From: Proteus vulgaris
GTDB taxonomy: Bacteria > Pseudomonadota > Gammaproteobacteria > Enterobacterales > Enterobacteriaceae
Assembly (NCBI RefSeq): GCF_023100685.1
Contig: NZ_CP090064.1
Location: 620,001 to 684,000 of the forward strand
DNA length: 64,000 bases
Direction: 5' to 3'
Both the position numbers and the translations under genes were made by a program. Shown here piece by piece: positions 3,932 through 35,900 of this stretch (position 1 is its first letter; each line of letters opens with the position of its first letter). The notes under the pieces were generated by a model. The model did not search any database and was not told the DNA's origin. It worked only from the letters and a program-made list of their open reading frames with translations.

Positions 3932-4188
3932 TTAGACTGGTCAGATGAGATATCTATAGCATAACGAGAAGTGAGTGATTAAGAGTTCATTATGTTAACA
4001 AGTTGTGATCTTAATCATGGAAAAGGTGAATAGCACGTTATAAAGCAATAATAATCTAAGTGATTACTTAATGAGAACAAATAGTGATAATAAAAATCAC
4101 ACTCATTCATAATATTTCATCATATAATGTAGTGTACCTATTAATATGTATTAAAAACACACATCACTATTTTGAATTTGGAGACGTT

Positions 4189-4605
4189 ATGATTAATAAA
4201 TTTAATCAACTTGTTGACTGTTCTGATTTAGGTAAACTTGTATTACGTGTTTCTCTTGGGGTTTTAATGTTATTACATGGGCTTCATAAGATGGAACCAG
4301 GTGGATTAGCTGGTATTCAAGGAATGTTAGCTAATTTTAATCTACCTGCTTTTATTGCCTATGGTACGGTGATTGGGGAAGTTGTCGCGCCTATCTTATT
4401 GATTATCGGTCTATTTACTCGTGCGTCAGCACTTGTTTTAGCAGGTACAATGTTTGTTGCTGTCTTAATGGTTCACTCTGGTGATTTATTTGCATTAAAC
4501 CCTAAAACAGGGGGATGGGCACCAGAAAGTGCAGGTTTCTATCTATTCGCTGCGATTGCTGTGATGTTTTTAGGTAGTGGTCGTTTTGCAGTTAAAAAAG
4601 ATTAA
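4189..4605 (+). CDS. DoxX family inner-membrane protein (YqjF-like)
   Basis: A 138-residue, four-helix membrane protein of the DoxX/SURF4-like family. The visible landmarks are LVLRVSLGVLMLLHGLHKM in the first helix and a GEVVAPILLIIGLFTRASAL second/third helix. The E. coli relatives YphA and YqjF have no firmly known reaction, and DoxX proteins are linked loosely to redox stress. The start is ATG 4189, with GGAG at 4180-4183 seven to eight bases upstream. The open frame extends 35 codons further upstream, but that stretch is AT-rich, has no ribosome site and does not resemble the family. It is followed by a strong hairpin shared with the convergent protease gene. Confidence 0.85.
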   Translation: MINKFNQLVDCSDLGKLVLRVSLGVLMLLHGLHKMEPGGLAGIQGMLANFNLPAFIAYGTVIGEVVAPILLIIGLFTRASALVLAGTMFVAVLMVHSGDLFALNPKTGGWAPESAGFYLFAAIAVMFLGSGRFAVKKD

Positions 4606-4756: not shown

Positions 4757-7555
4757 TTATTTTTGAGTTGCTGGCGTTAACTTAAAGACCTTTTCATTTT
4801 CACCTAACCATTGGCGAGCTACTTGGTTTATATCGTTAACACTTAATGTTTTTATAATGGCAGGATCAGTGAGTAAGCGCTGATACTGTTGGTCATCAGT
4901 TGCAACTTGAGCAAGCGCCTCTGTCCAATAACTTGCACTGTCATTTACCTGTGAATTTTCAGTTAGCCAGATATTTTTAGCCTCTTGTAACTCTTTCTCT
5001 GTAATACCTGACTGCTTAACTTCATTCACGACTTTACGAGCAAGGGCGATTAATTCATCTGCACGCTCAGGTGATGCCGTAAAGTTTAAACGACCGGTAT
5101 AGTAGCTTGTAGGCACTTTCGTTAACATTTCAGAGAACCCAAGTGAATAAATTCCGCCTGCTCTTTCACGTAGGTTGAGTCTTAAACGTTGGCTGATCAC
5201 TGTATCCAGTAAATTTAGCGCAAGTACTTGTTGTTGTGACCATTGAGCTGGCGCTGCATATTGAATGCTAATCATACTCTTATCACTGCTTGCGATAGGG
5301 TATGTTTTGCTAAATGAAGTCAGTTTTGGATTAATGGCAGGATCTGCCCAGAATAGACGCTGTTCAGAGCGTGTCGGGAGACTTGCAACCCAGCGTTCAA
5401 TCAAAGGTTTTACCTGATTAACATTGACAGGACCACTGATAACTAATGTCATATCAGCCGGTTGTCCTAAGATCATTTGGTTTGTTTGCTGTAATTGTTG
5501 AGCAGTAAACTGTTTCCAAGCACCTTGCGGAGAAACCACTAAGCGTTCGCCATTTTGATAGCTTTCTTTATTGATATTATCCAAGAAAGTACGTTCAACA
5601 GGTGTTTTTGAAATACCTAATGTCATGGCTTGTTTTTGTTGCTCTAATTTCTCACCGTTAAACTGTGGAGAGGTAATTTTTAGATGCATTAAGGTTAGTA
5701 AGGTTTCTAGTTCATCAATTGGTGCTTCGCCACGAAAACCATGAAATAACAGTTCGCTATAAGGGCGCAAACTAATTTGGTGTTGTTTGGTAAATAACGC
5801 TAATTCACGCGCATTATAATTACCATATCCGCTTACTTCGGGTAATTTCAACGCCCATTGAACCATGCCTAAGCTTTGATTTGTTTCAAGTGATGAACCA
5901 CCAGGAATACGCAGTGAAACTTGGATATTATCTTTGAGATAACTGTCATTTTTCACAATTACTTTTACGTTATTGCTCAGAGTCCACTGTTGCGTTTTTT
6001 CAATAGGGAGTGATTGCGTTGAAACAATTGAACCAGTGAGTTCAGGTTTAATATCTAATACAACGGCTTGTGTTTTTAGGGTAAATGCGCCTGGATTTGA
6101 CTGTCTAATTTCTTGCCAACGTTGCGTTGCTTTAGTTGCATTAAATAAATTAGCATCATTATCAGGACCAATCACAGCAACGCGTGGTGATGACTGTTTT
6201 AGATATTGAGAAAAATAAGCTGACAATGTTTCAGGGGTCACTTTATTGATTAATTGATAGCTTAAATTTAGTGCCTGTTTTTTAGTTTGAATTGGCATAT
6301 CCAATTCAATGGCTGTTGTGATTTGGTTGGCTAAATAATCGTGCTCGTAACGCTCTTCACCCGCAGCTTGTTGGCTTAGGCGTTTTAGCATTGCGTTACG
6401 GGCATTATCTAGCTCTTCTTGAGTCACTGGAACAGAAGCTAGGCGTTGAACTTCTGTAAATAAGATATCTAATGCACCTTGATAATCATTGCCTTTAGGG
6501 TGCGCAATCATCAATTGTTGTGAACGACGAGAGTCTAGCATTGCGCCTTGTGCATTAGCGCTAATAGAAGCCATTAAGCCATTATCAACGATAGTTGAGA
6601 AACGTTGATTTAAAATTGATAGCCATAATGAATCCATTAAATCTTCATATTGGCCTTGTCGACTGTTTAAAGGTGCTGGCAAAGTACGTTGCAAGGTGAA
6701 CTGTAAAATACGTGAACCTTGTTCTTTATCGAAAATTGTTTTAACCAGTAGATCTTTATGGTCGATAAAATTGTGCCAAGAAGGATCATCAATTCCTTTG
6801 TTTTCGCTATTTTTAGCGTTAAACAGTTGTTTGATATCGGCAATGGCATCACCTTGATTAAAGTTACCAACCAGTACTAATGCCATTCTTTCTGGTTGAT
6901 ACCAAGTATCGTAATAGCGTTTTGCATCTTTCACGTCACCATGCTTAACGATTTCTAAATCGCCAATAGGATCACGATCAAGATAACGGCTACCGTAATA
7001 ACGTAATTCTTCTAATTGGCGGTTAATACGAAAACCGATACCTTGGCGTAAACGCCACTCTTCAACAATAACAGGACGCTCTTTATCAAACTCGATAGGG
7101 TCAAATGTCATTTCAAATGCCCAGTCAGATAAGATCTTTAATCCCGTTTTAATCTGGATCGGGTTTGCATTCGGCAATGACAGTTTATAAGTCGTCGCAT
7201 TTAAACTTGTCGCGGCATTAACATGACTACCTAATTTCATGCCAAGGCTTTCGAGTTGTTTAAAGCCCGTTGTTCCCGGAAAATGGGTTGTACCTTTAAA
7301 TGCCATATGTTCAGTAAAGTGTGAAAAACCAAGCTGTTTTTCATCTTCTTGAACCGAACCACTTTTTACCAAAAGACGCATTTCAACACCTGTTTGTGGG
7401 CGTTGCAGTAAGTAGACGTCTAAACCATTATCTAGGGTAAAATGGCGGACATCAGGACGCAGTAATAGCGTACTTTTGTCATTTTGATTAGGAGTGCTTG
7501 TCGCACACCCTAAAAGTGAAAGACTGACTGAAACAATCAGTAATTTACGATACAT
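4757..7555 (-). CDS. M16 zinc protease lipoprotein, PqqL/FusC-like
   Basis: A 932-residue periplasmic metallopeptidase of the pitrilysin/insulinase (M16) family. The N-terminus is a lipoprotein signal with lipobox LLGC (Cys17) followed by Ala, suggesting outer-membrane anchoring. The inverted zinc motif HFTEH is at 79-83, and the distal zinc glutamate lies in VIVEEWRLRQG (Glu165/166). A second, non-catalytic M16 half follows, as usual for this fold. Length and layout match E. coli PqqL (931 residues) and Pectobacterium FusC, which cleaves imported plant ferredoxin in the periplasm to free its iron. It is the last gene of the operon, and its start overlaps the ABC transporter stop by 11 bases. 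The substrate here is inferred from family and context. Confidence 0.9.
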   Translation of the reverse strand: MYRKLLIVSVSLSLLGCATSTPNQNDKSTLLLRPDVRHFTLDNGLDVYLLQRPQTGVEMRLLVKSGSVQEDEKQLGFSHFTEHMAFKGTTHFPGTTGFKQLESLGMKLGSHVNAATSLNATTYKLSLPNANPIQIKTGLKILSDWAFEMTFDPIEFDKERPVIVEEWRLRQGIGFRINRQLEELRYYGSRYLDRDPIGDLEIVKHGDVKDAKRYYDTWYQPERMALVLVGNFNQGDAIADIKQLFNAKNSENKGIDDPSWHNFIDHKDLLVKTIFDKEQGSRILQFTLQRTLPAPLNSRQGQYEDLMDSLWLSILNQRFSTIVDNGLMASISANAQGAMLDSRRSQQLMIAHPKGNDYQGALDILFTEVQRLASVPVTQEELDNARNAMLKRLSQQAAGEERYEHDYLANQITTAIELDMPIQTKKQALNLSYQLINKVTPETLSAYFSQYLKQSSPRVAVIGPDNDANLFNATKATQRWQEIRQSNPGAFTLKTQAVVLDIKPELTGSIVSTQSLPIEKTQQWTLSNNVKVIVKNDSYLKDNIQVSLRIPGGSSLETNQSLGMVQWALKLPEVSGYGNYNARELALFTKQHQISLRPYSELLFHGFRGEAPIDELETLLTLMHLKITSPQFNGEKLEQQKQAMTLGISKTPVERTFLDNINKESYQNGERLVVSPQGAWKQFTAQQLQQTNQMILGQPADMTLVISGPVNVNQVKPLIERWVASLPTRSEQRLFWADPAINPKLTSFSKTYPIASSDKSMISIQYAAPAQWSQQQVLALNLLDTVISQRLRLNLRERAGGIYSLGFSEMLTKVPTSYYTGRLNFTASPERADELIALARKVVNEVKQSGITEKELQEAKNIWLTENSQVNDSASYWTEALAQVATDDQQYQRLLTDPAIIKTLSVNDINQVARQWLGENEKVFKLTPATQK

Positions 7556-9254
7556 ATTCGGTAACTCCAGCAGGTTGAGAGGAGGACACGGTAGGGGCTT
7601 TGAGTGAAATCACATTATCTGCAATCACATGTGTAAAGCGCTGGTGGCTGACCAAGGCAATACCTGCGGTTGGCAGATGTTGTTTTAGTAGCTGCAACAT
7701 GTTTAATGCATTTTGCTCATCAAGTGCAGAGGTGGTTTCATCTAATAAAATAAGCTCAGGTTTATTGAGTAATAAACGGGCAAAAATAAGGCGTTGTTGC
7801 TCACCACCTGATAGGCGTGTTGTCCAATCAGTTTCTAGTAAAAGTTGATTTTTTATTTTGCCTAATCCCACTAAATGAAGTGCTTCTTCATACTCTTTAG
7901 CGGAGAATTGATTAGGCTGACAAGGATAAGCGAGCAAACTGTCTAAACGTGCAAAAGGCAGATACATACGCTGTGGGATCCAACACACATTTGGTGAACG
8001 TTGAATTTCCCCTTTGAAATAAGGCCAATGCCCACTTAATGCTCTAAGTAGTGTTGATTTGCCTAAGCCAGAGCAACCTTCAATAACGGTTAACTCACCT
8101 GCTTTTACAGAGAAGTTAATATCTTGAATTAACAGGCTGTCATCTTGCATAAACAGAGAAAGATTGGCCTTCAATTTAGTCTGTTTATCATTTAAATCTG
8201 CAACTTCTGGCTCATGATCATGCTCTAAGAGTACCACGAAGTTATAAAGACGAGTCACCGTTGCTTGCCATGCAGCAATCTCTTTATAAGAGAAAATAAA
8301 CCAGCTTAATGCACCAGCAACACTAGAGAAGGCTTGTCTTAATTGCATTAATCCCCCTAGCATTAATTCGCCAGCAAGGAATTTAGGTAAGGCAAAAATA
8401 ATCGGTGCCATTGCAGTGGCTTGTTGATAGCCGACAGTGAAGAATGCAAGGTTTCTTTCGTAGCGGATAAGATTGTTCCAGTTACGAATAACCCCTAAAA
8501 AACGACCCATTAATTCATTGCGATCACTCATTTCACCACGCTGACCTGCAATCGCATCACCATGTTGTTTACGAGTGATAAGTGCAGTACGGTAATCAGC
8601 TTCTTTGCGTTGCTTATCCATATTAATCTTACGCAAGGGTGAGCCAATAAACTGCGTAATGGTGATCCCGATAATGGTATAGATAATACAAGCCCAGAAC
8701 ATATACCCTGGAATTGTCCACTCGCTCCCTCCTAATGTGAAAGAGATAGCGCCAGACAGTGACCAAAGAATGGTAGCAAAAGAGATAAGCGTGAGTAACG
8801 AGTGCAAAAATGTCACGGTTAAACGCATTGTTGATTCAATCAGTAAACGAATATCTTCTGCAATACGCTGATCCGGGTTATCAGGCTCTTGAGAAGTCAG
8901 TCTTAACATGTAGTGTTTACTATTTTTTGATAACCAGCGATCGAGCACTTGTTCAGTCATGCCTTCACGCCAGCGAATAACCATTTTTTGGCGTAAGAAA
9001 TCGCCCATTACTACGACTGTAATTAATCCTGCAATAATAATGACAAATTGTTGAAGTAGCTTGTAGAGAGCTTGTCCATCAAGTTGTTGTAATGCGTTAT
9101 AGAAACTACCATTCCATTCATTCATTTTGACGTTAAACCAAACGGATGACAGGGTTAAGGTCAAAGAGACAATCAATAGAAACCAGCAGTAAAGGGCGGC
9201 ACGCCGCCCCCAAAAAGGTGAAACTAAATAGAAAAATTGTTTTATTGTTTTCAT
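7545..9254 (-). CDS. YddA/SbmA-like ABC transporter (fused permease-ATPase), FusD-like
   Basis: A 569-residue inner-membrane half-transporter. The N-terminal SbmA/BacA-like membrane domain (about 1-330) carries the family phrase NPDQRIAEDIRLL. The C-terminal ATPase has Walker A (GCSGLGKST), signature LSGGEQQR and Walker B LILLDETTSAL. It resembles E. coli YddA throughout, which is encoded with the receptor YddB and protease PqqL. In the Fus model the transporter may take up peptides or the released product, but no substrate is proven. It lies 63 bases after the receptor gene and overlaps the protease gene by 11 bases, so the two are probably translationally coupled. Confidence 0.9.
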   Translation of the reverse strand: MKTIKQFFYLVSPFWGRRAALYCWFLLIVSLTLTLSSVWFNVKMNEWNGSFYNALQQLDGQALYKLLQQFVIIIAGLITVVVMGDFLRQKMVIRWREGMTEQVLDRWLSKNSKHYMLRLTSQEPDNPDQRIAEDIRLLIESTMRLTVTFLHSLLTLISFATILWSLSGAISFTLGGSEWTIPGYMFWACIIYTIIGITITQFIGSPLRKINMDKQRKEADYRTALITRKQHGDAIAGQRGEMSDRNELMGRFLGVIRNWNNLIRYERNLAFFTVGYQQATAMAPIIFALPKFLAGELMLGGLMQLRQAFSSVAGALSWFIFSYKEIAAWQATVTRLYNFVVLLEHDHEPEVADLNDKQTKLKANLSLFMQDDSLLIQDINFSVKAGELTVIEGCSGLGKSTLLRALSGHWPYFKGEIQRSPNVCWIPQRMYLPFARLDSLLAYPCQPNQFSAKEYEEALHLVGLGKIKNQLLLETDWTTRLSGGEQQRLIFARLLLNKPELILLDETTSALDEQNALNMLQLLKQHLPTAGIALVSHQRFTHVIADNVISLKAPTVSSSQPAGVTEYVS

Positions 9255-9317
9255 TGCTTATTGGTCATGTTTTTATTGTGTATCGACTTGGTTGCTCACA
9301 TTAACTTCGTCAATTTA

Positions 9318-12059
9318 TTAATAGTCGTAGCTGACTTGTAACCAGAACTGACGACCTGGTTCATACGATTTGTAATCTTTATCTTGATAAGTGAAGTAGT
9401 CAGTTACATTTTTAGTGTTAAGGACGTTATTCACTTCAACAGAGATACCTACGCCATAAGCAAATTCAGGTTTCCAACCCAATTTGGTATCCCAAGAAAA
9501 ACGACTGCTGTAATTACGTTTTTTGTATTCGAATAATGGGCCATATTCACTTGGTCTTGGGGATCCATTATTGGCTTTCTCCGCTTGTGAACGAGCGCCA
9601 TTCCATTGAAGACGGTTATACCAAGTCAAATCCAAATCATCCCAAACACTGGTGAGTTCAGCGGTGACTTTTAATGGTGAGTTAAAGTTGCCAGAAGGTA
9701 AGTCTTTGGCATTGATGATTTTTCCGTCATACCATACTTTGTCGTAGTTCATCCCTTGTGTACTTGGATCAAAGTTGGCATAACCAGAGTCTTTAGGCGT
9801 ATTTGTTTTACTTTTTTGCCAGCTAATAGAGGCATTAAAAACATGATCAGCTTGCGCTAATTCCCAAGGCTGACTGTTTTTCACAGAAAGTGTTAAGGTG
9901 TCGTGAGTACTGCGTCCATTATTATTAAAATGGCGAATTCTTATTTTATCTTTGTCATTTGGATATTTTGTATCACTACGAACTTCATCACGACCTTCAC
10001 GATGAACGTATTGTAAACGCCAAGTGGTTGATGCAATTTCTTGTTGCAAGCCTAGTGTTAGCTCATCGTTATAAGGTGTTTTCAGTGAATCAACACCTTC
10101 AAAGTCGGTACGGTTTTCCCAATCGCTTGGATTATCGTTATCACAAGAGAAGTAGCAGTGCTGTAAGCCTGCGTTCTGTGCCCCATAAAGCGCATAAGTC
10201 AGCATTGAACGGCCATAGTAACGGTTTACGCCACCAATAATTAAGGTATTACCAGTGCCCCAAATATCATAAGTTCCGCTTAAACGTGGAGAGATATTAT
10301 TTTTTTGAACAAAATCATCACGATCCAAACGAATACCTGGGCGCAGTGTTAAGCGCTTATATTGGAGGTTATCATCAACATAAATTGCGTAGTTGGTATA
10401 TGAAGCATCATGTGTACCTGCTAAGAAACGGGTTGTTTGTTGTAATGAACCCATCCACTCATCGCCCCATGTAGAGCCAGTATAGGTGTGGTTGTAATAG
10501 GTTTTGTCTCGAACATAAGAGCCTTTAGTACGGCTAATTTCAAACCCTGTTGTTGGCTGGTGGCTAACTGAGCCCCATTCAATTGGGTTAAATCGCATGA
10601 TACTTTTGGCATTGTAGGTTTCTTGTTTGCTTTTCAAATCGCCTTGACCACCACTGCTTATCTGCTGTGGGTTTTGCCAATCGGTATAGTCTTTTATGGT
10701 GACGAAGTAGTCTTGATCATTAGAACGCTTGTCTTCAAGGTTTTGATAACCCGCAGTTAATTCTAATGAACCAAGATCAAGTTGATGCTTATAGAGTGCA
10801 GTAAAACTTAAACCATTATGCTCATTATCATAGCCTGAGTTATAGACTGAACCTGAGAATAAATAGCTTTTGTATCGTGCGATATTTGTTGATAAATCAA
10901 AGGTTTGTTTTTCTGAAATATCCCACGAATATTTAATGAAATAGTTATCGGAAGTACGGGTTTGGTCACGATAGTGTGGCGTTTGTTCAACTTGTTCTAA
11001 CTGGCCATCTGGCGTAAGGATAATTCCACCCTCTGCACTAATCATCATCGGAATGGTTGATTCACGACGTGATGCAGAGAAAATTAGCCCCGTATTGTCA
11101 GTTAGACTCGTTTCAAACCAACCACCAAAGTTTTGTTTATCATATTTTTTCTGGAAACGAGCAGGGTTACTAAAATCATTATTAGCTGTATCAAAATTCA
11201 GCTTTGGATCAGTAAAAATATTGTTCCAGCTTGAGCGCGTAGTGCGGTAATAGGCATTGGCATGAGTTTCGCCTGACCAGCGACGGCTTTGTACTTCGAC
11301 AGTCCCGCCAGTAAAACCACCAAACTCAACAGGAATGTTGTTATCATAAACCGCGACGCTATCAATTAAGCGACTATCAAGATACATACCTTGCTCATCA
11401 CTACTAATACGAGTGTTGGTTTCTCCATTACCTGAGTTTGCTGGGTCAAAGTCATTATTAAAACTGACACCATCAAGTTTATAGGAGTTTTGATAACTGC
11501 TAGAGCCATGAATAGAAATACGTGAAGGTTTAATTTCACCCTGATTCATTGATGTGCTGTCATTATTGGAAAATTGAACAGCAGGGTTACTTTTCAGTAA
11601 GTCAGTTACGTTTCCATCACCAGTATTACGCTGTTTTATCTCTTCTGCGGTGATATATTGTGGCGCGGAAATGACATCGGTAGCTGGGTGATAACTGCTA
11701 CCGACACCCGTGACTTTGACTTCAGGAATGACAATCGCGTTAGTCGTGGCGAGAGGACGAATAACAAATCCACTTCCTTGTGGAATAATTTCTAAACCAC
11801 TACCAATTAAGACTTTTTGTAATGCAGTTTGTGTTTCAAATTGACCTGAAAGTGCTGGAGCACGCAGGTTTTTAACTGAATTTGCATCAAATAAAATTTG
11901 TACTTGCCCTTGTTTTGCAATGGCACTCAATGAATCAGCCAAAGACTGTTCTGGTAAAGCCACAGAAACGGTAGATGCATAAGCACAAGGTGCAGCAATA
12001 GTGGTACTTATTAGCAACGCTAGCAGAGACCTCTTAAGGGTCCCTTTTTTGTTATTCAT
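9318..12059 (-). CDS. TonB-dependent outer-membrane receptor with STN signalling domain, YddB/FusA-like
   Basis: About 913 residues. A signal peptide (ends near PCAYAS) is followed by an STN domain (ALPEQSLADSLSAIAKQG and the next ~50 residues), which in transducing receptors contacts a FecR-type protein. Then come a plug domain and a 22-strand barrel ending in an aromatic residue (FWLQVSYDY). The plug phrase SRISIHGSSSYQNSYKLDGV is clearly related to the corresponding part of E. coli YddB, the receptor of the pqqL locus. YddB itself lacks the STN domain, so this is a signalling version. I chose ATG 12059 because GGTGA lies seven bases upstream. The frame is open upstream to 12137. The ligand is inferred to be a protein such as a ferredoxin. 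Confidence 0.88.
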   Translation of the reverse strand: MNNKKGTLKRSLLALLISTTIAAPCAYASTVSVALPEQSLADSLSAIAKQGQVQILFDANSVKNLRAPALSGQFETQTALQKVLIGSGLEIIPQGSGFVIRPLATTNAIVIPEVKVTGVGSSYHPATDVISAPQYITAEEIKQRNTGDGNVTDLLKSNPAVQFSNNDSTSMNQGEIKPSRISIHGSSSYQNSYKLDGVSFNNDFDPANSGNGETNTRISSDEQGMYLDSRLIDSVAVYDNNIPVEFGGFTGGTVEVQSRRWSGETHANAYYRTTRSSWNNIFTDPKLNFDTANNDFSNPARFQKKYDKQNFGGWFETSLTDNTGLIFSASRRESTIPMMISAEGGIILTPDGQLEQVEQTPHYRDQTRTSDNYFIKYSWDISEKQTFDLSTNIARYKSYLFSGSVYNSGYDNEHNGLSFTALYKHQLDLGSLELTAGYQNLEDKRSNDQDYFVTIKDYTDWQNPQQISSGGQGDLKSKQETYNAKSIMRFNPIEWGSVSHQPTTGFEISRTKGSYVRDKTYYNHTYTGSTWGDEWMGSLQQTTRFLAGTHDASYTNYAIYVDDNLQYKRLTLRPGIRLDRDDFVQKNNISPRLSGTYDIWGTGNTLIIGGVNRYYGRSMLTYALYGAQNAGLQHCYFSCDNDNPSDWENRTDFEGVDSLKTPYNDELTLGLQQEIASTTWRLQYVHREGRDEVRSDTKYPNDKDKIRIRHFNNNGRSTHDTLTLSVKNSQPWELAQADHVFNASISWQKSKTNTPKDSGYANFDPSTQGMNYDKVWYDGKIINAKDLPSGNFNSPLKVTAELTSVWDDLDLTWYNRLQWNGARSQAEKANNGSPRPSEYGPLFEYKKRNYSSRFSWDTKLGWKPEFAYGVGISVEVNNVLNTKNVTDYFTYQDKDYKSYEPGRQFWLQVSYDY

Positions 12060-12121
12060 TTTCATTTCACCAATCCCATTCACTAACTTAATAATTGTTG
12101 TTACTAGGGAAGAGGGTGAAA

Positions 12122-12136
12122 TGAGAATTATCCTCA
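12122..12136. promoter_or_regulatory. Fur-like box upstream of the receptor gene
   Basis: TGAGAATTATCCTCA is an imperfect palindrome that agrees with the 15-base Fur core TGATAATNATTATCA at 12 of 15 positions, counting N. It lies in the 109-base gap between the FecR-like and receptor genes. That is where a sigma-factor-dependent promoter for the receptor would be expected. Binding is inferred. Confidence 0.5.
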
Positions 12137-12168
12137 CCTGTAAAAAAGAATATTTTTCATATTTCTTT

Positions 12169-13197
12169 TTACTTATTGATAATTAACGCATTATTTTTAT
12201 CGGTAAAAACAACATTAACCGGCAATATAAGTGGAATTGCGGTAATAAAGTCTTTGGCATCATTAATGTTAGCGATCCCTGAGACTTTCATTTTAGCAAT
12301 TTCGGGTGAGGAAATTTGAATATTGATATCAAGATAAGGTTTGAGTTTGGTTATTACTTCATTCAATGGACGTTCAAAGAAATGCAGTTGACCAAAACGC
12401 CAACTTCCCACGGAATCAATATTGACCGAAGAAATAACAAAACTGTCACTTGTTAATTTGCTGGTGGCTTGAGAGCCAGCATACAAATATGTAGGAGAGG
12501 ATTTAGGTGTTGCTTTAACCTCAACGATACCTTCATGAACAGCAACGTTAATTTGGTTGTCATTATAGCGGCTGACTTCAAATTCAGTGCCGACAACTTT
12601 AATTAATCGGGTATCTGCATGAACATAAAAAGGGCGATAAGGATTTGATTTGACCTTGAAATAGGCTTGCCCTTTATCTAACCATAGCTGTCTTTCTTCT
12701 TGTACATAAGCGACTCTGACTTGCGTGTTCCTGTCTAAATAGACTTTAGAGCCATCGGCTAAGGTCATCTCTTTCGGTAAGTCACTGGTTGCAAGCGTCA
12801 TATTATCCATCAGTAATGCGGGTAAATGACTATAAGGGAGATATAAGACAGTGAGTAGGCAAAAAGTTGCGGTAGTGTGGATAGCGGGGCGCCAAAGAGA
12901 ACGCTTTTTCTTTTCAACAGTGGTTATTGTTGGTCGTGATAATGCATCACATTGACGCCAAATACCCGCAATATCTTGATATGCTTGCCGATTTATATCA
13001 TTTTCAATCCATTCTTTAAATTCTTGGCGTTGCTTGGGAGTCATTCTTTGGCTATGTTGTCGGGTGAACCAAAGAGCTGCTTGCTCATCAATAGAGTCAT
13101 TGAGTAATTCATCATCATTTTCTAAAAAAAGATGATCTGCTCCCTCATCTGTGTGAGGTTTAGTTTCCGGTATGTTTTTTTCCGGCTTACTCATCAT
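12169..13197 (-). CDS. FecR-family regulator of the ECF sigma factor
   Basis: An inner-membrane sigma regulator of about 342 residues. The N-terminal cytoplasmic part has the DUF4880-like helix region (AALWFTRQHS...FKEWIENDINRQAY style). One membrane segment follows near TTATFCLLTVLYL, and then a periplasmic FecR domain (GSKVYLDRNTQVRV, FYVHADTRLIKVVGTEFEV). The C-terminal STN-like part (FFERPLNEVITKLKPYLDI) should meet the receptor's STN domain. I placed the start at ATG 13197, with AGGAG ten bases upstream inside the sigma gene; ATG 13194 is an alternative. The open frame continues upstream, antiparallel to nothing known and inside the sigma gene, so it is rejected. The start overlaps the sigma stop by 11 bases. 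Confidence 0.88.
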   Translation of the reverse strand: MMSKPEKNIPETKPHTDEGADHLFLENDDELLNDSIDEQAALWFTRQHSQRMTPKQRQEFKEWIENDINRQAYQDIAGIWRQCDALSRPTITTVEKKKRSLWRPAIHTTATFCLLTVLYLPYSHLPALLMDNMTLATSDLPKEMTLADGSKVYLDRNTQVRVAYVQEERQLWLDKGQAYFKVKSNPYRPFYVHADTRLIKVVGTEFEVSRYNDNQINVAVHEGIVEVKATPKSSPTYLYAGSQATSKLTSDSFVISSVNIDSVGSWRFGQLHFFERPLNEVITKLKPYLDINIQISSPEIAKMKVSGIANINDAKDFITAIPLILPVNVVFTDKNNALIINK

Positions 13198-13735
13198 TCG
13201 TGCATTTCTCCTGTCCTGCATCGACATATCTTTTGCAATGTAATAGGGCAGCCGCAATATGTTTTTCCACCATGCTGATTGAGATTTCCATTTGCTCTGC
13301 AATTTCGCTTTGTGATAATCCATCAAAACGATAAAGAACAAATGCTTCTCGACGGCGAGGTGGTAATGTTTCAATTGCTTCACTAAGTAGATCTAAACGC
13401 TGCTGATGTTCAAGGACATATCCCGGATCAAGTTCCGTGGCATAACTTTGAGCAGCGTCATCTAATTCACAATCATCCTGATAGATATCTTTTTGCTTTT
13501 GTTTTTTTCTCCAATGGTCAATCAAAACGTGGTTCGCTATTTTGAACAAAAAAGCACGCTGTTCTTGCACAGGTGTTTGTTCTTTTCTGTTTAGCCATAG
13601 TGTAAACACATCTTGAGACAAATCATCTGCATCATGGTAATTACCCGTACGTTTGTGGAAAAAACGCACAAGTTGTCCATGGGTTGATTGGTAGGCACAA
13701 CTAATTTTTTGTGCCAATGATTTATCGCTAGCCAT
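13187..13735 (-). CDS. ECF sigma factor, FecI-like
   Basis: A 182-residue RNA polymerase sigma-70 factor of the ECF group. Region 2 contains DADDLSQDVFTLWL and AFLFKIANHVLIDHWRKK. Region 4 contains ETLPPRRREAFVLYRFDGLSQSEIAEQMEISISMVEKHI. It is first in a minus-strand operon with the FecR-like regulator and the STN receptor, the standard order of iron-starvation surface-signalling sets (FecI-FecR-FecA, PupI-PupR-PupB). It should direct transcription of the receptor-transporter-protease genes when the receptor is occupied. Its own promoter is presumably in the divergent region with the Fur-like box at 13797. Confidence 0.92.
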   Translation of the reverse strand: MASDKSLAQKISCAYQSTHGQLVRFFHKRTGNYHDADDLSQDVFTLWLNRKEQTPVQEQRAFLFKIANHVLIDHWRKKQKQKDIYQDDCELDDAAQSYATELDPGYVLEHQQRLDLLSEAIETLPPRRREAFVLYRFDGLSQSEIAEQMEISISMVEKHIAAALLHCKRYVDAGQEKCTNDE

Positions 13736-13780
13736 AATCTCTGGTGTCTAAAAAAGAGTGAAATAATAAGCTCTTACTGC

Positions 13781-13792
13781 TTCTCATGAGAA
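13781..13792. promoter_or_regulatory. Perfect 12-base palindrome in the sigma/tonB divergent region
   Basis: TTCTCATGAGAA is a perfect inverted repeat located four bases from the Fur-like box and between two divergent starts. It may be part of an extended Fur site, since GAGAA/TTCTC half sites are common in such boxes, or a separate operator. No binding protein can be named. Confidence 0.35.
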
Positions 13793-13796
13793 CAAG

Positions 13797-13811
13797 TTAT
13801 GATAATTATCA
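13797..13811. promoter_or_regulatory. Fur box between the sigma factor and tonB-like genes
   Basis: TTATGATAATTATCA matches the 15-base Fur core TGATAATNATTATCA at 13 of 15 positions, counting N. It lies 62 bases before the sigma-factor start and 96 bases before the tonB-like start. Iron-loaded Fur could therefore repress both directions. This agrees with an iron-acquisition role for the locus. Confidence 0.65.
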
Positions 13812-13906
13812 AGCTAATTTTTTATTGTATTATTAATAATAAGCAATATCATTTGTGTTTGTATTATGCCTATAATTCATCAGAAAGAAAATCAGAGGCA
13901 AGAATT

Positions 13907-14704
13907 ATGAGTAGTATGTCGGCGACTTTTTCACGCCGTGGATCATTTTCTATTGGTGGATTAACTGCCAGTATTTTATTTCATGCAACGCTAGTCGTTG
14001 TCGCCATTGGCTGGATAACCTCTAAAGATGAACGCCATGGTGTTTTACCACCCGCAATGACAATGGATTTAGGTATCTATCAATTAGCTCAGGCAGAAAC
14101 AAAAGATGTTCCTGTTGGGCCTGAAAAAGTGATGTCTGTTCCTGAACCCGCAGAAACAGAACCTGAACCTGTGAAAGAAGTATTGGATTTACCTAAAATG
14201 CCAGTAGTAGAACAAGGCACTTATGAGCGTATTCCTGAAAAGCCGAAAGTAAAACCGGTAGTGAAGCCAAAACCCGTTGCGGTGAAAGTACCTGATGATC
14301 TTCCTGTCTCAGAAGCTCCATCGGAGGTAACAAGCGCGCCTATTTCTGGCTCTAATACAAGCAGTAGTGCTCAATTTAATAGTTTATCTTCCTCTTCTGT
14401 AAGTGGGCAAATGGGATGGGAAAGTTTGATACATAGTCATATTGAGATGTATAAACGTTATCCAAGAACAGCAATACGTTTTAAAGCGACAGGCGTGACA
14501 CAAGTTTCTATTGTGCTAAATGCAAAAGGTGAGTTGTTAGATGCGAAAGTGGAAACATCATCAGGTAATCGCATTCTTGATAGAGAAGCGTTAAATACGA
14601 TTAAACGCGCTTCGCCATTTCCCGCACCTGAAAGCTATCGTTTAGAAAATGGTAATATTTCGTTTACTGCGCCTTTAAGTTTTGATTATAGGCAAGAGAG
14701 TTAA
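13907..14704 (+). CDS. Dedicated TonB-like energy-transducing protein, FusB-like
   Basis: About 265 residues. A short cytoplasmic start and one membrane anchor (ASILFHATLVVVAIGWI) are followed by a periplasmic linker rich in Pro, Glu and Lys (EPAETEPEPV, KPKVKPVVKPKPVAVKVP). The C-terminal TonB domain includes the YP motif (YKRYPRTAIRF) and the GVTQVSIVLNAKGELLDAKV strand. The locus has its own TonB in addition to whatever housekeeping TonB the cell has, as Pectobacterium fusB does. The start is ATG 13907, with GAGG at 13895-13898. The in-frame extension back to 13799 runs through the Fur box and is rejected. It is transcribed away from the sigma/receptor operon. Confidence 0.9.
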   Translation: MSSMSATFSRRGSFSIGGLTASILFHATLVVVAIGWITSKDERHGVLPPAMTMDLGIYQLAQAETKDVPVGPEKVMSVPEPAETEPEPVKEVLDLPKMPVVEQGTYERIPEKPKVKPVVKPKPVAVKVPDDLPVSEAPSEVTSAPISGSNTSSSAQFNSLSSSSVSGQMGWESLIHSHIEMYKRYPRTAIRFKATGVTQVSIVLNAKGELLDAKVETSSGNRILDREALNTIKRASPFPAPESYRLENGNISFTAPLSFDYRQES

Positions 14705-14771
14705 GTTATTATTTATAATTATTTATTACATATTAAACTAACTATTAAAATAAATAATTTAAAGAAACAGA

Positions 14772-14805
14772 AACTAAAAAACCACCATAAGGTGGTTTTT
14801 TAGTT
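14772..14805. terminator. Strong bidirectional terminator after the tonB-like gene
   Basis: A 15-bp perfect inverted repeat (AACTAAAAAACCACC / GGTGGTTTTTTAGTT) with an ATAA loop gives a GC stem followed by six T on either strand. Confidence 0.88.
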
Positions 14806-14921
14806 TTAATCTTTGTGTTCGTCGGCATCGCAATTTTTCAGCGTCGCGGGGAAGATTGCCGCCTCTTTTATTCCCACCAACGAAATAAGAGTATCATAGT
14901 GAAAATATGACAGCAATATAA

Positions 14922-15638
14922 TTATCTAATAGAGTTTTTGTATGATAAAATCTCATCATCAACCTCATCAATATATAATGCATTGCTTTCATGGCTATAC
15001 ATATACATTTCTTTTAATATCAATAAGTCATTTTTTAAAGAATATAACTCTGATTCTAAATTTTTATTTGTTTTTCTTAATTCTTCAATTTCTATATATA
15101 ATTTATTTTTTGATATTGATGATAGTAGCCCTTTATCTAATAATTTTTTATCTCCACGACAAAGTGAAGCTCGATAATCCTCATTTCTATAATATTGATT
15201 GTATCCTTTTAATTTAAATAAAGGAGGAAGTATTCGCGTAACACAAACAGTTTGGATCATATCACATAAAGCATAAGTTTCTTTTTTAGCAAGATCACCA
15301 ATGTTTTTTATTGAATCATCTGATAATTTAAAAATAGAGGCATTAACGGCTAAGTCATGAGGCTTTTTTGATGTGAGTGGAATGACTTTAACCCCTCTGT
15401 CATCAGCTTTTACTACAATCGCAGGTCTTCTCTTATGCATTTCACCCTGTTGAATATTATCAGGATAGCGTTTATTTGTTTTTATACCCGCATTCAAAGT
15501 GACACATGAGAAGATATGCCCAAATTCAACAATAATAATTTTACCAAGATATAATATTGATTTAGCATTTTTATAATTTTTATTTTTTAATGTTTGAGAT
15601 AAGTAAATATCATCTGAACATTTCTTGGAGATAGCCAA
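14922..15638 (-). CDS. PemK/MazF-like protein with C-terminal coiled coil
   Basis: About 238 residues. The segment from about residue 34 (IIIVEFGHIFSCVTLNAGI) through MHKRRPAIVVKADDRGVKVIPLTSKKP has the pattern of PemK/MazF endoribonuclease toxins, including the conserved Arg of the RRP turn and the P-L-T-S strand. The C-terminal ~60 residues (from about IEIEELRKTNKNLESELYSLK) form a heptad-like coiled coil not typical of MazF. The start is uncertain: the frame opens with TTG at 15638, has no good ribosome site and overlaps the upstream gene by 52 bases. No in-frame ATG precedes the core. It is AT-rich compared with its neighbours, suggesting transfer. The function (RNA cleavage, toxin) is inferred from weak family resemblance. 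Confidence 0.6.
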   Translation of the reverse strand: MAISKKCSDDIYLSQTLKNKNYKNAKSILYLGKIIIVEFGHIFSCVTLNAGIKTNKRYPDNIQQGEMHKRRPAIVVKADDRGVKVIPLTSKKPHDLAVNASIFKLSDDSIKNIGDLAKKETYALCDMIQTVCVTRILPPLFKLKGYNQYYRNEDYRASLCRGDKKLLDKGLLSSISKNKLYIEIEELRKTNKNLESELYSLKNDLLILKEMYMYSHESNALYIDEVDDEILSYKNSIR

Positions 15639-15874
15639 ATATTTATAAGAATATTATTCTCAGATAGAGTTTGAATTTTTGAACTTTTTATTTCCCATCG
15701 GTGTTCTTTTCTACCTATAAATGATTTTGTGATAAAAATAGGATGGAAATTTTCTTTATCAATATTATCTCTAAATAGTGGAGTGATGATTTCGTTTATA
15801 CCATTTAGAATAACATGACCTAATAATATTTCAGATTGATAATTATAAAATTCAAAATAATTAATTCTTATCAT
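15587..15874 (-). CDS. Hypothetical 95-residue protein upstream of the PemK-like gene
   Basis: I do not recognise this protein. It starts at ATG 15874, with GGA about nine bases upstream. It is rich in Ile, Asn and aromatic residues and has no signal peptide, membrane segment or DNA-binding motif that I can see. Its 3' end overlaps the PemK-like frame by 52 bases, so the two are likely co-transcribed. It could be an antitoxin by position, but it has no visible resemblance to PemI/MazE or other AbrB-type antitoxins. Confidence 0.5.
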   Translation of the reverse strand: MIRINYFEFYNYQSEILLGHVILNGINEIITPLFRDNIDKENFHPIFITKSFIGRKEHRWEIKSSKIQTLSENNILINIWLSPRNVQMIFTYLKH

Positions 15875-16000
15875 AATATAATCCGTTAAGTAATGGTGAG
15901 GTATATCTGTGTTTTCGGGATTATTTTAGATTAATGAGACTTTATTTTTTCTATTTTAAACTTTAAATATATTTATTAAATTTCAAGCTAATTAAATATA

Positions 16001-16030
16001 AAAAAGCAGAGAATAATCTCTGCTTTTTTA
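16001..16030. terminator. Terminator downstream of ettA
   Basis: The inverted repeat AAAAAGCAGAGA / TCTCTGCTTTTT with an ATAA loop has A- and T-runs on both sides. It lies 27 bases after the ettA stop on the minus strand. Confidence 0.85.
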
Positions 16031-16056
16031 GTATCAAGTATCGTAAATAAACTCGA

Positions 16057-29962: not shown

Positions 29963-32900
29963 ATGAATGGATTCAAAAAAGTGCTATTCAAAGATAATAT
30001 AAATGAAATTGTATCAAAAATTGAAAATCATATAAAAGAAAATAATTCAGAACTTTTTTTTAAAGTACAATCTGTAAAAAGAATATTAACAGAAAGTTAT
30101 ATATCTATTTTCATTTCTAAAAATGAGTATGCTGCGAATGAGTTTTTAGAAAAAATAGAGAATAGTTTTTCACTTTATCATAAAAATGAATTTACAAAAC
30201 AGCTTGATTTAATTAGAAAAAAAATCAATAAAAGCATAGAGGAACTATTTGTTAATAGTGCAAAATTAGCAGGAAGAGGATCTAATAAAATAAAAAAAGA
30301 ACGATTGGAATTATTAATGCAGCATAATGTTTCTGGTGATTACTATTTGGAATTTGAAAGTAAAAAGCTATTTATACAAATAGATAATGAAAATAATAGT
30401 TTTAAAATTATTGATTTTAATGGATGTGCTGAGTTTTTTTATGATAAAAATAGTCTAATAAATAAAAACAATTCTCTTATAAGTATTAAGAATGATGATA
30501 GCTTTTTATATTATCGATTTTATAATAAAAAAGAATATTCTGATCATTTTAATAATACGGAAAATTGGAGTATCAATAATAAAAACATTCTTGATATGAT
30601 AATCAATAATATTAAAATTAAAGAAAAAATAAGTATCAATAAAGATATTAGTATTGAACTGAATGAGAGTTATTCGTATAAAAATATTTTTATTGTTAGA
30701 GATAACTTGAACAAAACAGAGAAAATACTGCATATATATGTCTCTGATATAGAAGAAGCATTTACAATTGCAAAATCTAAATATGAGCAAATAACTGATA
30801 GTGGAGAACATTTACTTTATAAAATCGGTACAGGTTGGTTTATTACTAAAATAAAACATAATGTTATGAAAAAGTTTTCACAATATACGGATCTATTAAA
30901 ACCATTAGAAAAAATAATGAGCCGAGTTAATTTAATTACCTCAACAGAAACTAATTATGATTTTAGTCATATTCAAAATCTTAATGGATTATGTTATGGG
31001 CTGAGTTTGAACTATTTAGTCGAAGTTATAAATGGTGGTTTAGAAGGAGGGAATAAATATTTATTCTGGTTAAAGGAGAATGTACGATCTTATCAAAATG
31101 AACAAGAAATTATAGCCGATAAATTTGATTCAATTTTATTTAGTAGTATACGGGAATATGAAATATTAAATCTAATTAAAGAAATAAAAAGTATCATATT
31201 TTCTCAGCATTTCCAAATGGAAAGGTTAAGTGAAAAAGCACAATATTTTGTATTTGATTCAATAAAATCAAGTGAATATAGTAAAATTTTAGAACAACGA
31301 GGATTAAAAAGATCACATATAAGAAAAATAGCATATGATAAAAACAAAATTAATGAATACTTAGAGTACATCATAAAAAATAATGATAATTATTATGCTA
31401 TTATTGGATTTAAAGATCATGCTATTGCTATTTCATATAAAAAATACTCTGAAAATTATTATAAATTTTCCTTGTTTGATTCTAATAGTGAATTATTAGA
31501 ATATTCTAGTGTTGGATCTATAAATAAAATTTTAGCGAGTAAAATGGATTTTTATGGCTCACATGATATTGATAATGAAAAATATATTATTTTTGATGAG
31601 TATATAAATAATAAAGAATCAAATTACCGAAATGTATGGGATTATAATGATGTAGAGATAAATAAAGGTCTTGCTGAGAATATAAAGAAAATAGGTTTTG
31701 CATTACCCTTTGACGAAAATATTACAGGGCGTGTTCTTCATTATAATGAACATCGTGATCTTATAGTTGAGCTAAAAAGAAACAATAAAATAATAGAAGT
31801 TGTTGTAAAGAATTCTAATTTTGATGAAGGGATTTATTTAATAAAAAATCATTTTTCTCAGATCGTAAAGAATGAAAAAGCCAGTAAAATTACTTTAAAT
31901 AAAAATGATAATGGTGATATAAATATTCAAGAAACTGAGTTTGATAATTTTCAAAAAATAATAATAAACAAAAATTATATTGAATTTAGTGATGTATACT
32001 ATCGTGATCTGATTAAGATTAATAGTTATTTATTAAAAGGAAGCAAATCTACTTTATTAAATGAAATAGTTTCTTTAATTGATATCTTAGAAGGAAATAT
32101 ATATTTTGATAAGTTGTCAGCAAGTTTATCTCTTATTAACAAAATAGAATATTTTAATTATAATAATAAAGGTATATCTCTTTTTAATATATTAAATAAA
32201 GTAAAGGAAAAAATAGAAAGTAAGTTATTTTATGATAAGTTAATTTATGGGAAAGATAAGTTAATCGCCTTATCTAAAAAAAATAGTTTAGTTGCTGCAA
32301 AATTTTATCAATTAATGGTTAATGAAATTAATGAAGTTAATAAAGGTGTTAGTAATTTCATTTACAATAATATTATTGAAAGTCCTTATTTGTCACTAGA
32401 TGAAAATAGAAGTATGGGAGTTTATGGATATGATTATACTATTGAATTTAAAGAGAATTATCAATATATAGATGAAGTAATTAAAGGAATTGATATTCCA
32501 GAATTAAAAAATACTCTTTTATTAGAAGAAAAAAATAGATTACATTTAAAAGATAGCTATAAGAAACTATTAGAATATAAAAATCATAATTATGTAAGTA
32601 AATTAATTGGCTTTATTGAAAATGAAATAGATTTAAAAAAAGGTAATAAATTAAGCTCTTATCAAGATTTGTATTTTGATTTTTTTATAAATCAGCAATT
32701 CACCAATAAAATGATTATTCATGAAATGGTTCAATTGGAAAACTATTTTCTTAATAATTACCGTGAAAAAAATTATGGATACTATCAAAATAATTTCTTT
32801 ATTAATGAAGATGATCCTCGTGTTCTTTTAGAAAAATCACTTAATCAAAATAAAAATAAAATAGATTGTAGTTATTTATTATTTGATGATAGTAAAGAAA

Positions 32901-35900
32901 ATTTAAATTTTTTATTTTCTGAAAATATTATCTTTACTGATAAAATCATAGATAATATTATTCTTGATAATATAGAAATGTATTATCAAGAAGATATTAT
33001 AAATTATTTCTATAATGGTATTAAAAATGAAGAGCTAACCTCATACCTAAAAGATAAGCCAGAAGTAAGTCATCTTTTGGATTATTGTCTAAAAAATAGA
33101 ATAAGAATAATAGTAACAGGAAATAGTGAAAGAAGTCTTTTTAATCAAGAATTAATTAGACAAAAGGATGAAGTCGAAAAACTATATAATATTATTTTAG
33201 AAAATCAATTTTTTAATGAAAAAACAATTGTTTTTGCAAAAAAGGATAAATTGTTAAGTCACCAATATGGTGATTTTTTTATTGAAGGAATTGCTCAACG
33301 ACTAAATATGCCTATTTATCAAATAATTGATAATAGGTTATCTCTATCAAAGGATAACGTAATTGTTAAACCTTTAGTCAAACGACAACATATAGATAAA
33401 CCTTTACTTGCAAATGTTCTACTATCTCATGTCATCATTCCTGAGATAGAATCTAATAATATAGAACCCATCTCACTTAATGAAAAAATAAAAAAAGAAA
33501 ATCAAAAATTAACTGAAGGGTTATACCAATTTGTTTCTAAAATACATCCTAATTATCGTGATAATAAAGAATTTAAACTAGGCTATGAAAAAGATATTAA
33601 AACTGTTATTTATGACTATTCAGATAAAATCACAGTATTAGATATCTTTAATTACATTAAACTTAATCATTATGGGCTTAATCTTTATCAACTCGGTTCT
33701 ATCATCAATAAAATTGATAATGTTAATATCAAACAGCATAGGGAAAAATTAAAGGAGCTCAGTGATAAGCTTATTAATAATGATATTTCCATAAATACTG
33801 CATGTGAAAAATATCAGTATGAGTTATCTGCTTTTTTTAACGTTTCAAGTAAAATAAAAATAAAAAATAAGTTAACACAAATGATACATGATCCGCTGAT
33901 TAATAAAAAATTTAATCAATATTTAATGGGGGGAATAACATATCAACAATGGCAATCATTGATTTCCTTATCAGAAGGATCGCTGACATTAATTGAAAAA
34001 ACAAATAAAACAATTGAGGTGATTCATGCAATTTATGATAATCCAACATTGATAAATAAATTAAGTTTGTTTTCAAGAAATTTACTTGATTCATTTTTTG
34101 ATAGAAATAAAAAAGGTAATTTATACAGAGTGTTATTAGATAACATCTCTAATTTTGGAAACTATAAAAGGATAATAAGTTCACTTCAAAATATTATCAC
34201 AATGATCCATCATAAAGAGATACTAAATTCATCATCGCCCTCTAAGGCTTTAGAAAAAGCAAGTAACTTTAATCAATTAAATATATTGGAGATGAATAAC
34301 CAACCATTAATTAATAAAGAAAAATTAAAAATAAATGAACATTTTTTTGATAAGCAATTATTGGTCAATGTAGGAGCGATAATTAATGGAAAAAGTATCG
34401 ATTTAATTGATCTTAGTAAAATAGATAAATGGGAGTCAAAACTCACCTTCGACCCTCATCATTTTAATGATTATTTTTTATCTATTTCTGGCAATGAAAA
34501 AGACAAACAGATAATTTCTCTATTTTCTTATTTACTAAATAGTAAAGAAGATAAAATTAAATATCTACTTTCTAATGATACTAATAGAATTGATTATATT
34601 GTTGCTTATGAAAGATTAGCTAAAATTATTGATTTAGAAAATAAAGAATATAGTAATAATGATTGGGATGTATTAAGGAAACAGTCATCAATAATTCCAC
34701 GACATATGAAAATAATAAGTAAGATTGGTTATGCTAATATTACTTATAGTATGTGGCAGTCAGTTAATTCTACGTTTATGCTGGCTGAACAACTTAGTAA
34801 TCCATTGTTGACATCAAAAGAACGTCAAGAGATCATTAATAACCTTGCTATAATGTGGTCTGAAATGGTCTACAATGGTTTGTCTGAAGTAATTGAAATT
34901 TCATTAGCTAAAGGATTGCTAAAATATCGGCATAATCCATTGGAATATATTAATAAAATAAGCACAAAAATAGGTGTTGGGCTGAATATACTTTCTATTG
35001 GCTTCGATATTTATAATGCTTACGATAATTTTAGTCGAATTTCAGATGAAAATAGTGAAAAGCAACGTATTGATTATATTGTTAATGGATCTTTGGCTGT
35101 AGTGTCTGGATTGGTAACTTTGGGGGTTTCTATTGCGATGCTTGCAGGTTCAACTATTGCTGGCCCTATAGGTATTGTTGCAGGTGCCGTTATTGCTTTA
35201 GCAACTTCAATTTATACAGCAGCAAGGCTTATTGAGGAAGCAAAAACAAAAGTACATTTTACACCACTAGAAGAGCTGAATAATGGCTTTTATGCATTTT
35301 TGATGGGGGATCTTATACCAGATAAAAAAAATGAAATTATCTATTTGGAAACCAAAATGCAATTAGAATCATTGATAGATAAAAATGCAGCTAATTATCT
35401 TGAAGAAATAAGAAAGCAATTTAATTTTGCTCGTTATTTCTATACTAATGAGAAACAAATATATCAAGAATGTTATTATTATAAGATAGTGCCAAACCTA
35501 ATGGGTAAGAAATTAGATTCAATTTTAAATCCTTTTGGTGAGTATGTTGCTCAGCGAATATCGTTAAATATGAGTCAAAAAGAAGCAGAAAAAATAGCAG
35601 CACTCTCTTATCATTTACGTTCGGAAAAAACAGAATATAAGTATTATCTACCTAAAGAAGCTATAGCCACAAATGAAATACTTATTTTTGATATGGATTT
35701 TTATATTAATGAATTGAAACGTTACTCTATAGATATTATTTCAGATGATAATTCACCTATATTCTCTGAGGTTGTTGATGATGATTTTTTCAGAAGAATA
35801 AAAACAACACGAGAAAATAGCATTCATCTATTTGGTGAAAAAAAAGTAACTAATGATTTAATAAAAGCTAATAAATATGAAAGATATTATAATTTGGGTT

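Follow-up and report, generated by a model that had tools for sequence, protein, structure and literature searches.

The window (the whole 64,000-nucleotide stretch of Proteus vulgaris DNA analysed here) contains, at positions 4757-14704, a six-gene locus coding for an M16 protease lipoprotein, a YddA/FusD-type ATP-binding cassette (ABC) transporter, an STN-bearing receptor of the FusA/YddB family, FecR, FecI and a TonB homologue. Our favoured reading, with a probability of about 0.68, is that the locus encodes a Fur-gated, substrate-sensing Fus-type protein importer with a FecI/FecR switch and a dedicated HasB-like TonB. Sequence comparison argues strongly for a self-sensing Fus-like importer; a protein substrate, its role as the inducer and iron as the benefit of import are our inferences.

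During iron limitation, Fur repression would presumably be lifted, giving expression of fecI-fecR, tonB and a little receptor. A protein substrate would then bind the FusA-like extracellular loops, and the STN domain would signal via FecR (probably cleavable at a Gly-Thr bond) to FecI, which would drive the receptor-ABC-protease operon from a conserved fecA-like promoter. TonB would power import. Beneath the outer membrane, the lipoprotein M16 protease would cut the protein, a product of which would be taken up by the SbmA/YddA-type ABC transporter.

Gene content and family membership

The locus has the reading order fecI-fecR-receptor-ABC-protease on the minus strand, with tonB on the plus strand and divergent from fecI. 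The source genome is 4.39 Mb in a single contig; judged by the receptor, its nearest named relative is Proteus vulgaris PR00166 (98%). All six reading frames are open and were assigned to the expected families above Pfam cut-offs, as an earlier interpretation made from the letters of the DNA (the sequence-only reading) had proposed. Three starts were corrected by inspection. The receptor likely starts at the ATG at 12065, as the listed GTG at 12137 sits at a promoter-like block; FecR probably starts at 13194, overlapping fecI by 8 bp and not by ~196 bp; and TonB probably starts at 13907, with 13799 listed. The same six genes occurred in the same order in 25 of the 26 loci found by receptor search (a few copies were interrupted), indicating that the grouping is more than chance. 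The exception was a Moritella locus (L031) with receptor, ABC transporter and protease only. Overall, the six-gene locus occurs in Proteus, Providencia and a few other enterics.

The receptor contains STN and Plug domains (Pfam) and has a 30% identity to E. coli YddB, in which no STN was found, a difference already seen by the sequence-only reading. Its nearest solved relatives by both sequence and predicted fold are YddB and FusA; ordinary siderophore receptors were not the best match. P. rettgeri RB151 (L030) has an interrupted receptor gene, and only the C-terminal part of the receptor is kept in L072, the second locus of one genome, reflecting either decay or sequencing error in both cases.

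The protease contains Peptidase_M16 and M16_C domains (Pfam) and has a 25% identity to E. coli PqqL. The HxxEH zinc site predicted earlier is kept as HFTEH (residues 79-83), with EE at residues 165-166, and a lipobox (LSLLGC) is followed by A at +2. The best PDB matches were 9ldy and PqqL (6ofs), followed by 6b03 and others titled putative zinc protease, which we take to be FusC. A lipoprotein protease was considered as a hallmark of FecIR-type loci and rejected, as a simple lipobox pattern was present in 31/33 proteases with FecIR but also in 21/44 without. In P. penneri (L013) and P. stuartii (L020), decay or sequencing error interrupts the protease gene. One protein of 1226 aa (P0111), whose longest contig measures 6566 bases, joins a FusA-type plug and first strands to an M16 protease; the fusion could be real, or result from a deletion or faulty assembly. 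The ABC protein combines ABC_membrane_2/SbmA_BacA and ABC_tran domains with Walker A, LSGGE and Walker B motifs present, and has a 37% identity to E. coli YddA (best PDB match 6tqe). The combination of a FusA/YddB-type receptor, an adjacent HxxEH M16 protease and a FusD/YddA-type ABC transporter places the locus in the Fus/Ydd-PqqL family, as had been claimed. In E. coli, the three homologous core proteins are encoded by yddA-yddB-pqqL (L034), where an STN, FecIR and a linked tonB are all lacking, and PqqL shows no lipobox.

The FecI protein contains the Sigma70 r2 and r4_2 domains (Pfam). FecR contains DUF4880 and FecR domains above the Pfam cut-off and a FecR_C match below it, and has a 24% identity to E. 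coli FecR, with VVGTEF aligning to ALGTEF. The Gly-Thr bond is the stated self-cleavage site of the FecR family (PMC9249621; papers cited here are represented by parts of their text). No second FecR was found in the genome, in keeping with the dedicated switch that had been suggested. Parts of FecA-type signalling are present, namely a receptor STN, a FecR with DUF4880 and Gly-Thr site, and an extracytoplasmic function (ECF) sigma factor, FecI. The locus shares with E. coli fecI-fecR-fecA the gene order fecI-fecR-receptor, the STN and the Gly-Thr site, and its promoter-like block resembles that of fecA in sequence; however, the Proteus receptor barrel is of the FusA family and the operon carries a protease and an SbmA-type ABC transporter instead of fecBCDE.

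Table 1. Positions of the locus features in the window
Feature	Position	Strand	Basis
FusC/PqqL-like M16 metalloprotease, predicted outer-membrane lipoprotein	4757..7555	-	Pfam, PDB matches, HFTEH, lipobox
FusD/YddA-like ABC transporter (SbmA/BacA-type membrane domain and ATPase)	7545..9254	-	Pfam, YddA identity, PDB match
FusA/YddB-family TonB-dependent receptor with STN, 915 aa	9318..12065	-	Start corrected
STN signalling domain, residues 30-104	11754..11978	-	PF07660 above cut-off; folded in model
Disordered linker between STN and plug, residues 106-124, probable TonB-box region	11694..11750	-	Predicted local distance difference test (pLDDT) <50; box inferred from position
Conserved promoter-like block, TGAGGATAATTCTCATTTC + ACCC + TCTTC	12109..12136	-	Proposed FecI-type promoter overlapping Fur-like site
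FecR-like sigma regulator, Gly-Thr site VVGTEF	12169..13194	-	Pfam, E. coli FecR alignment
FecI-like ECF sigma factor	13187..13735	-	Pfam
Fur-box-like site upstream of tonB, 14/19	13832..13850	+	Simple 19-mer score
Dedicated TonB homologue, HasB-like C-terminal domain	13907..14704	+	TonB_C; HasB 2m2k best PDB match

Linkage of STN and FecR among relatives

We pooled the 26 loci from the receptor search, 72 regions covering receptor matches in four genome samples, and E. coli. The 26 loci are not a random sample because the query carried an STN; the genome samples were searched with a mixed alignment. Receptor matches occurred in 5/369 genomes of the class sample, 16/198 of the family, 48/394 of the order and 13/398 of the phylum, with the own genome counted in each sample and the samples overlapping; further receptors may be missed, since only two to four first-look candidates were scored per genome. 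A total of 99 loci had a receptor, and leaving out L072 and L109, which hold pieces only, gave 97 receptors of at least 700 aa.

An STN (cut-off 30 bits) was detected in 33 of the 97 receptors. FecR (cut-off 90 bits) was located within 8 kb of all 33 and FecI (same cut-off) of 32, the missing FecI belonging to L057, where the contig ends just past FecR. Neither FecR nor FecI was detected beside any STN-less receptor (0/64 for each). After clustering at 70% identity, linkage to FecR was 7/7 with STN compared to 0/48 without. This one-to-one linkage of STN and FecR among full-length relatives is new here.

The receptor tree consisted of 81 rows, with 17 near-copies left out and columns less than 60% filled dropped, which removes the STN. 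The STN/FecIR trait changes three times on this tree, and the starred branches force three, on quick trees with some long branches including L071, L120 and L121. On a 39-row subset, likewise with quick trees, approximately unbiased tests rejected three groupings: all FecIR rows as a single clade (p 6e-54), the Proteus group joined to L120 and L121 (p 1.5e-4), and the Proteus group joined to L071 (p 2e-8). Separate events are also supported by gene order, which differs between FecIR groups, with fecI-fecR-A-D-C in the Proteus group and fecI-fecR-A-C-D in L071 and L120 (A, receptor; C, protease; D, ABC transporter); no C or D was found near L121. The closest relatives of this group (e.g., Moritella L031, L074 and L075) carry the A-D-C core but lack STN, FecIR and tonB, which makes the addition of a signalling module to an existing core the likely history, although the tree itself cannot separate gain from loss.

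Proposed receptor promoter and Fur-like sites

The block directly upstream of the receptor is near-invariant in Proteus, Providencia, Klebsiella sp., Citrobacter sp. and an uncultured Cedecea, although the receptors of the other genera are only ~60% identical to that of the window. It matches 15/19 bases of E. coli GGAAAATAATTCTTATTTC upstream of fecA, a likeness reached by 7/5000 shuffles and by 1/1242 window pieces (possibly the site itself). TCTTC then follows, compared to GTCCTT in E. coli fecA, with the spacing off by one base. A Fur site overlies the fecA -35 region (review, PMC9249621). We propose that the block resembles a FecI-type promoter overlapping a Fur-like site. Its 14-base core was found within two mismatches in 30/34 FecIR loci, the misses being L071, L120, L121 and L028, although L028 shows the block in the alignment. 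Only the TCTTC after the core was exclusive to FecIR loci, as judged by eye on aligned rows.

Upstream of tonB, a crude 19-mer Fur score was a moderate 14/19 (reached by 13/500 shuffles), and 14/17 relatives scored 14-15/19 at this position.

TonB, substrate and rival explanations

The locus TonB contains a TonB_C domain (Pfam) with HasB as its best PDB match (2m2k; E 7e-18, 68 bits), compared to 25 bits for the next two matches, titled TonB; the HasB-type assignment is of class and not proof of orthology. A homologue search returned 17 proteins, of which the eight best (at least 75% identical) include all named Proteus, and the remaining nine were weak (60 bits or less), leaving the search too shallow to place the locus TonB. 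Where FusB has RRxxYP the locus TonB has MYKRYP, and RRxxYP is absent in this TonB and 30 relatives, which have KRYP (RRYP in L011). By comparison, RRVNYP was present in the TonBs next to six clusters lacking an STN (L058, L061, L066, L067, L070, L086). The double arginine is characteristic of FusB, and replacing both arginines abolishes ferredoxin import (PMC13253070; FusB and FusC functions are as described in PMC7593965). The absence of RRxxYP makes the locus Fus-like rather than a strict FusABCD, and substrate pulling may differ; the earlier description of a complete Fus locus thus fails in its strict sense. In the locus, as in Pectobacterium FusABCD, a FusA-family receptor, a TonB homologue and an HxxEH M16 protease cluster with an ABC transporter of the FusD type. 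The Proteus locus differs by the added STN and FecI/FecR, the altered TonB motif, a protease predicted to be a lipoprotein and the order receptor-ABC-protease with divergent tonB.

The label ferredoxin is not supported, since nothing favours ferredoxin over other proteins as the substrate. M-type pectocins reach FusA via a ferredoxin domain. Colicin_M (PF14859) was sought as a substrate clue and detected in 0/60 relatives, with control genomes equally silent, making the result uninformative.

The class of the TonB raises the possibility, which we consider unlikely, of a haemoprotein or haem carrier as the substrate; the protease would then free haem, not an iron-sulphur cluster, and the HasB-like TonB and FecIR would mirror HasR-HasI-HasS-HasB. 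HasB is the nearest match of the locus TonB among solved proteins. Of two further TonBs from this genome that were compared, L004 matches HasB alone (81 bits) and adjoins a ChaN-like gene (by eye), and L002 matches TonBs and HasB alike. ChaN-like genes are found in haem loci. The Serratia Has system likewise places a protein-binding receptor under sigma/anti-sigma control with a dedicated HasB-type TonB, and HasR with HasA is a known case of a protein ligand that triggers signalling (PMC9249621). HasR takes haem from a haemophore left outside (PMC9249621). The Has system has no protease and its receptor is of another family, and no haemophore or haemophore-secretion genes were found among the locus genes scanned.

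Import of a peptide or small metallophore, in which the protease would trim a peptidic substrate, the SbmA/BacA-type transporter would import the peptide and no whole protein would enter, appears improbable. The ABC membrane domain does match the SbmA/BacA family, known for peptide transport, and peptides and small proteins are substrates of M16 proteases. The receptor model, however, aligns best to its nearest relatives FusA and YddB, whose extracellular substrate sites are large (PMC5095587, PMC6793856). Finally, that FecIR is a mere neighbour regulating other genes, as the importers without FecIR in E. coli and other STN-less loci might suggest, is hardly credible given the one-to-one STN/FecR linkage through three separate changes on the tree, the fecA-like promoter immediately upstream of the receptor gene and the lack of any other FecR found in the genome for the STN to serve.

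Several observations weigh against a Fur-gated, self-sensing protein importer. Three FecIR loci (L071, L120 and L121) lack the promoter block, and the 14-base core was also found within two mismatches in 9/65 loci without FecIR, suggesting that part of the core is a Fur-like site. These 9/65 loci, together with 17/2000 shuffled pieces, rule out the core as a FecIR-exclusive motif. The uniqueness of the motif in the genome is weak evidence, as the 19-mer gave one exact match and one with three mismatches compared to three for its reversed control, and the 14-mer gave one exact match compared to two; the stretch at the second 19-mer match holds a phage-lysozyme-like open reading frame (ORF; by eye) and was treated as chance. 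The Fur score at the receptor promoter (12/19) was reached by 140/500 shuffles and is not significant, and the stretch upstream of the neighbouring sstT also scored 14 (9/500 shuffles). As the TonB is not FusB-like, the direct substrate contact of FusB may not apply, and E. coli YddB/PqqL gave no growth support in iron-limited LB medium (PMC6793856).

The sequence-only reading had called the arrangement little described. This holds for the coupling to FecIR, as no paper coupling Fus-type import to FecIR was among the matches listed from open-licence PMC papers; the main text of PMC6793856 has 0 mentions of FecR, FecI or anti-sigma, and its Fig. 2 or S1 Table may hold FecIR neighbours. It does not hold for the importer, since fus operon homologues of varied gene order were noted in Proteus and Yersinia (Grinter 2016, PMC5095587) and a Providencia cluster with FusC association was defined in Grinter 2019 (PMC6793856).

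Three neighbouring regions were also observed. A DoxX-family gene (4084-4605), convergent with the protease gene, has a sub-cut-off match to the HvfX family of copper-RiPP (ribosomally synthesized and post-translationally modified peptide) maturation; it is beside the locus in 11 Proteus loci and was not detected in the other 15 of the 26. Between tonB and an ABC-F-like gene lies a stretch of ~1.2 kb (14705-16056) with a PemK/MazF-like ORF (22 bits, just below the Pfam cut-off) and a small ORF, and in Proteus relatives it was aligned through in 2/11, partly in 2/11 and missing in 7/11. An ORF of 2729 aa (29963-38152) with RTX calcium-binding repeats, from which it is probably exported, adjoins a YaaA gene.

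The repeated changes on the tree suggest that the signalling module and the receptor STN have met on protein importers more than once. We tentatively propose, at somewhat less than even odds, that whole-protein import has come under direct sensing of the imported protein repeatedly, on three or more occasions by the receptor tree, with one receptor binding, reporting and importing its prey, and that the pulling role of FusB has passed to a HasB-type TonB in Proteus and relatives. If true, this would be substrate-inducible protein foraging. What Fus-like systems import outside soft-rot bacteria is an open question stated in PMC6793856. It becomes testable here because the receptor promoter would be a built-in read-out for the inducer, and a self-reporting importer could help identify the protein it imports.
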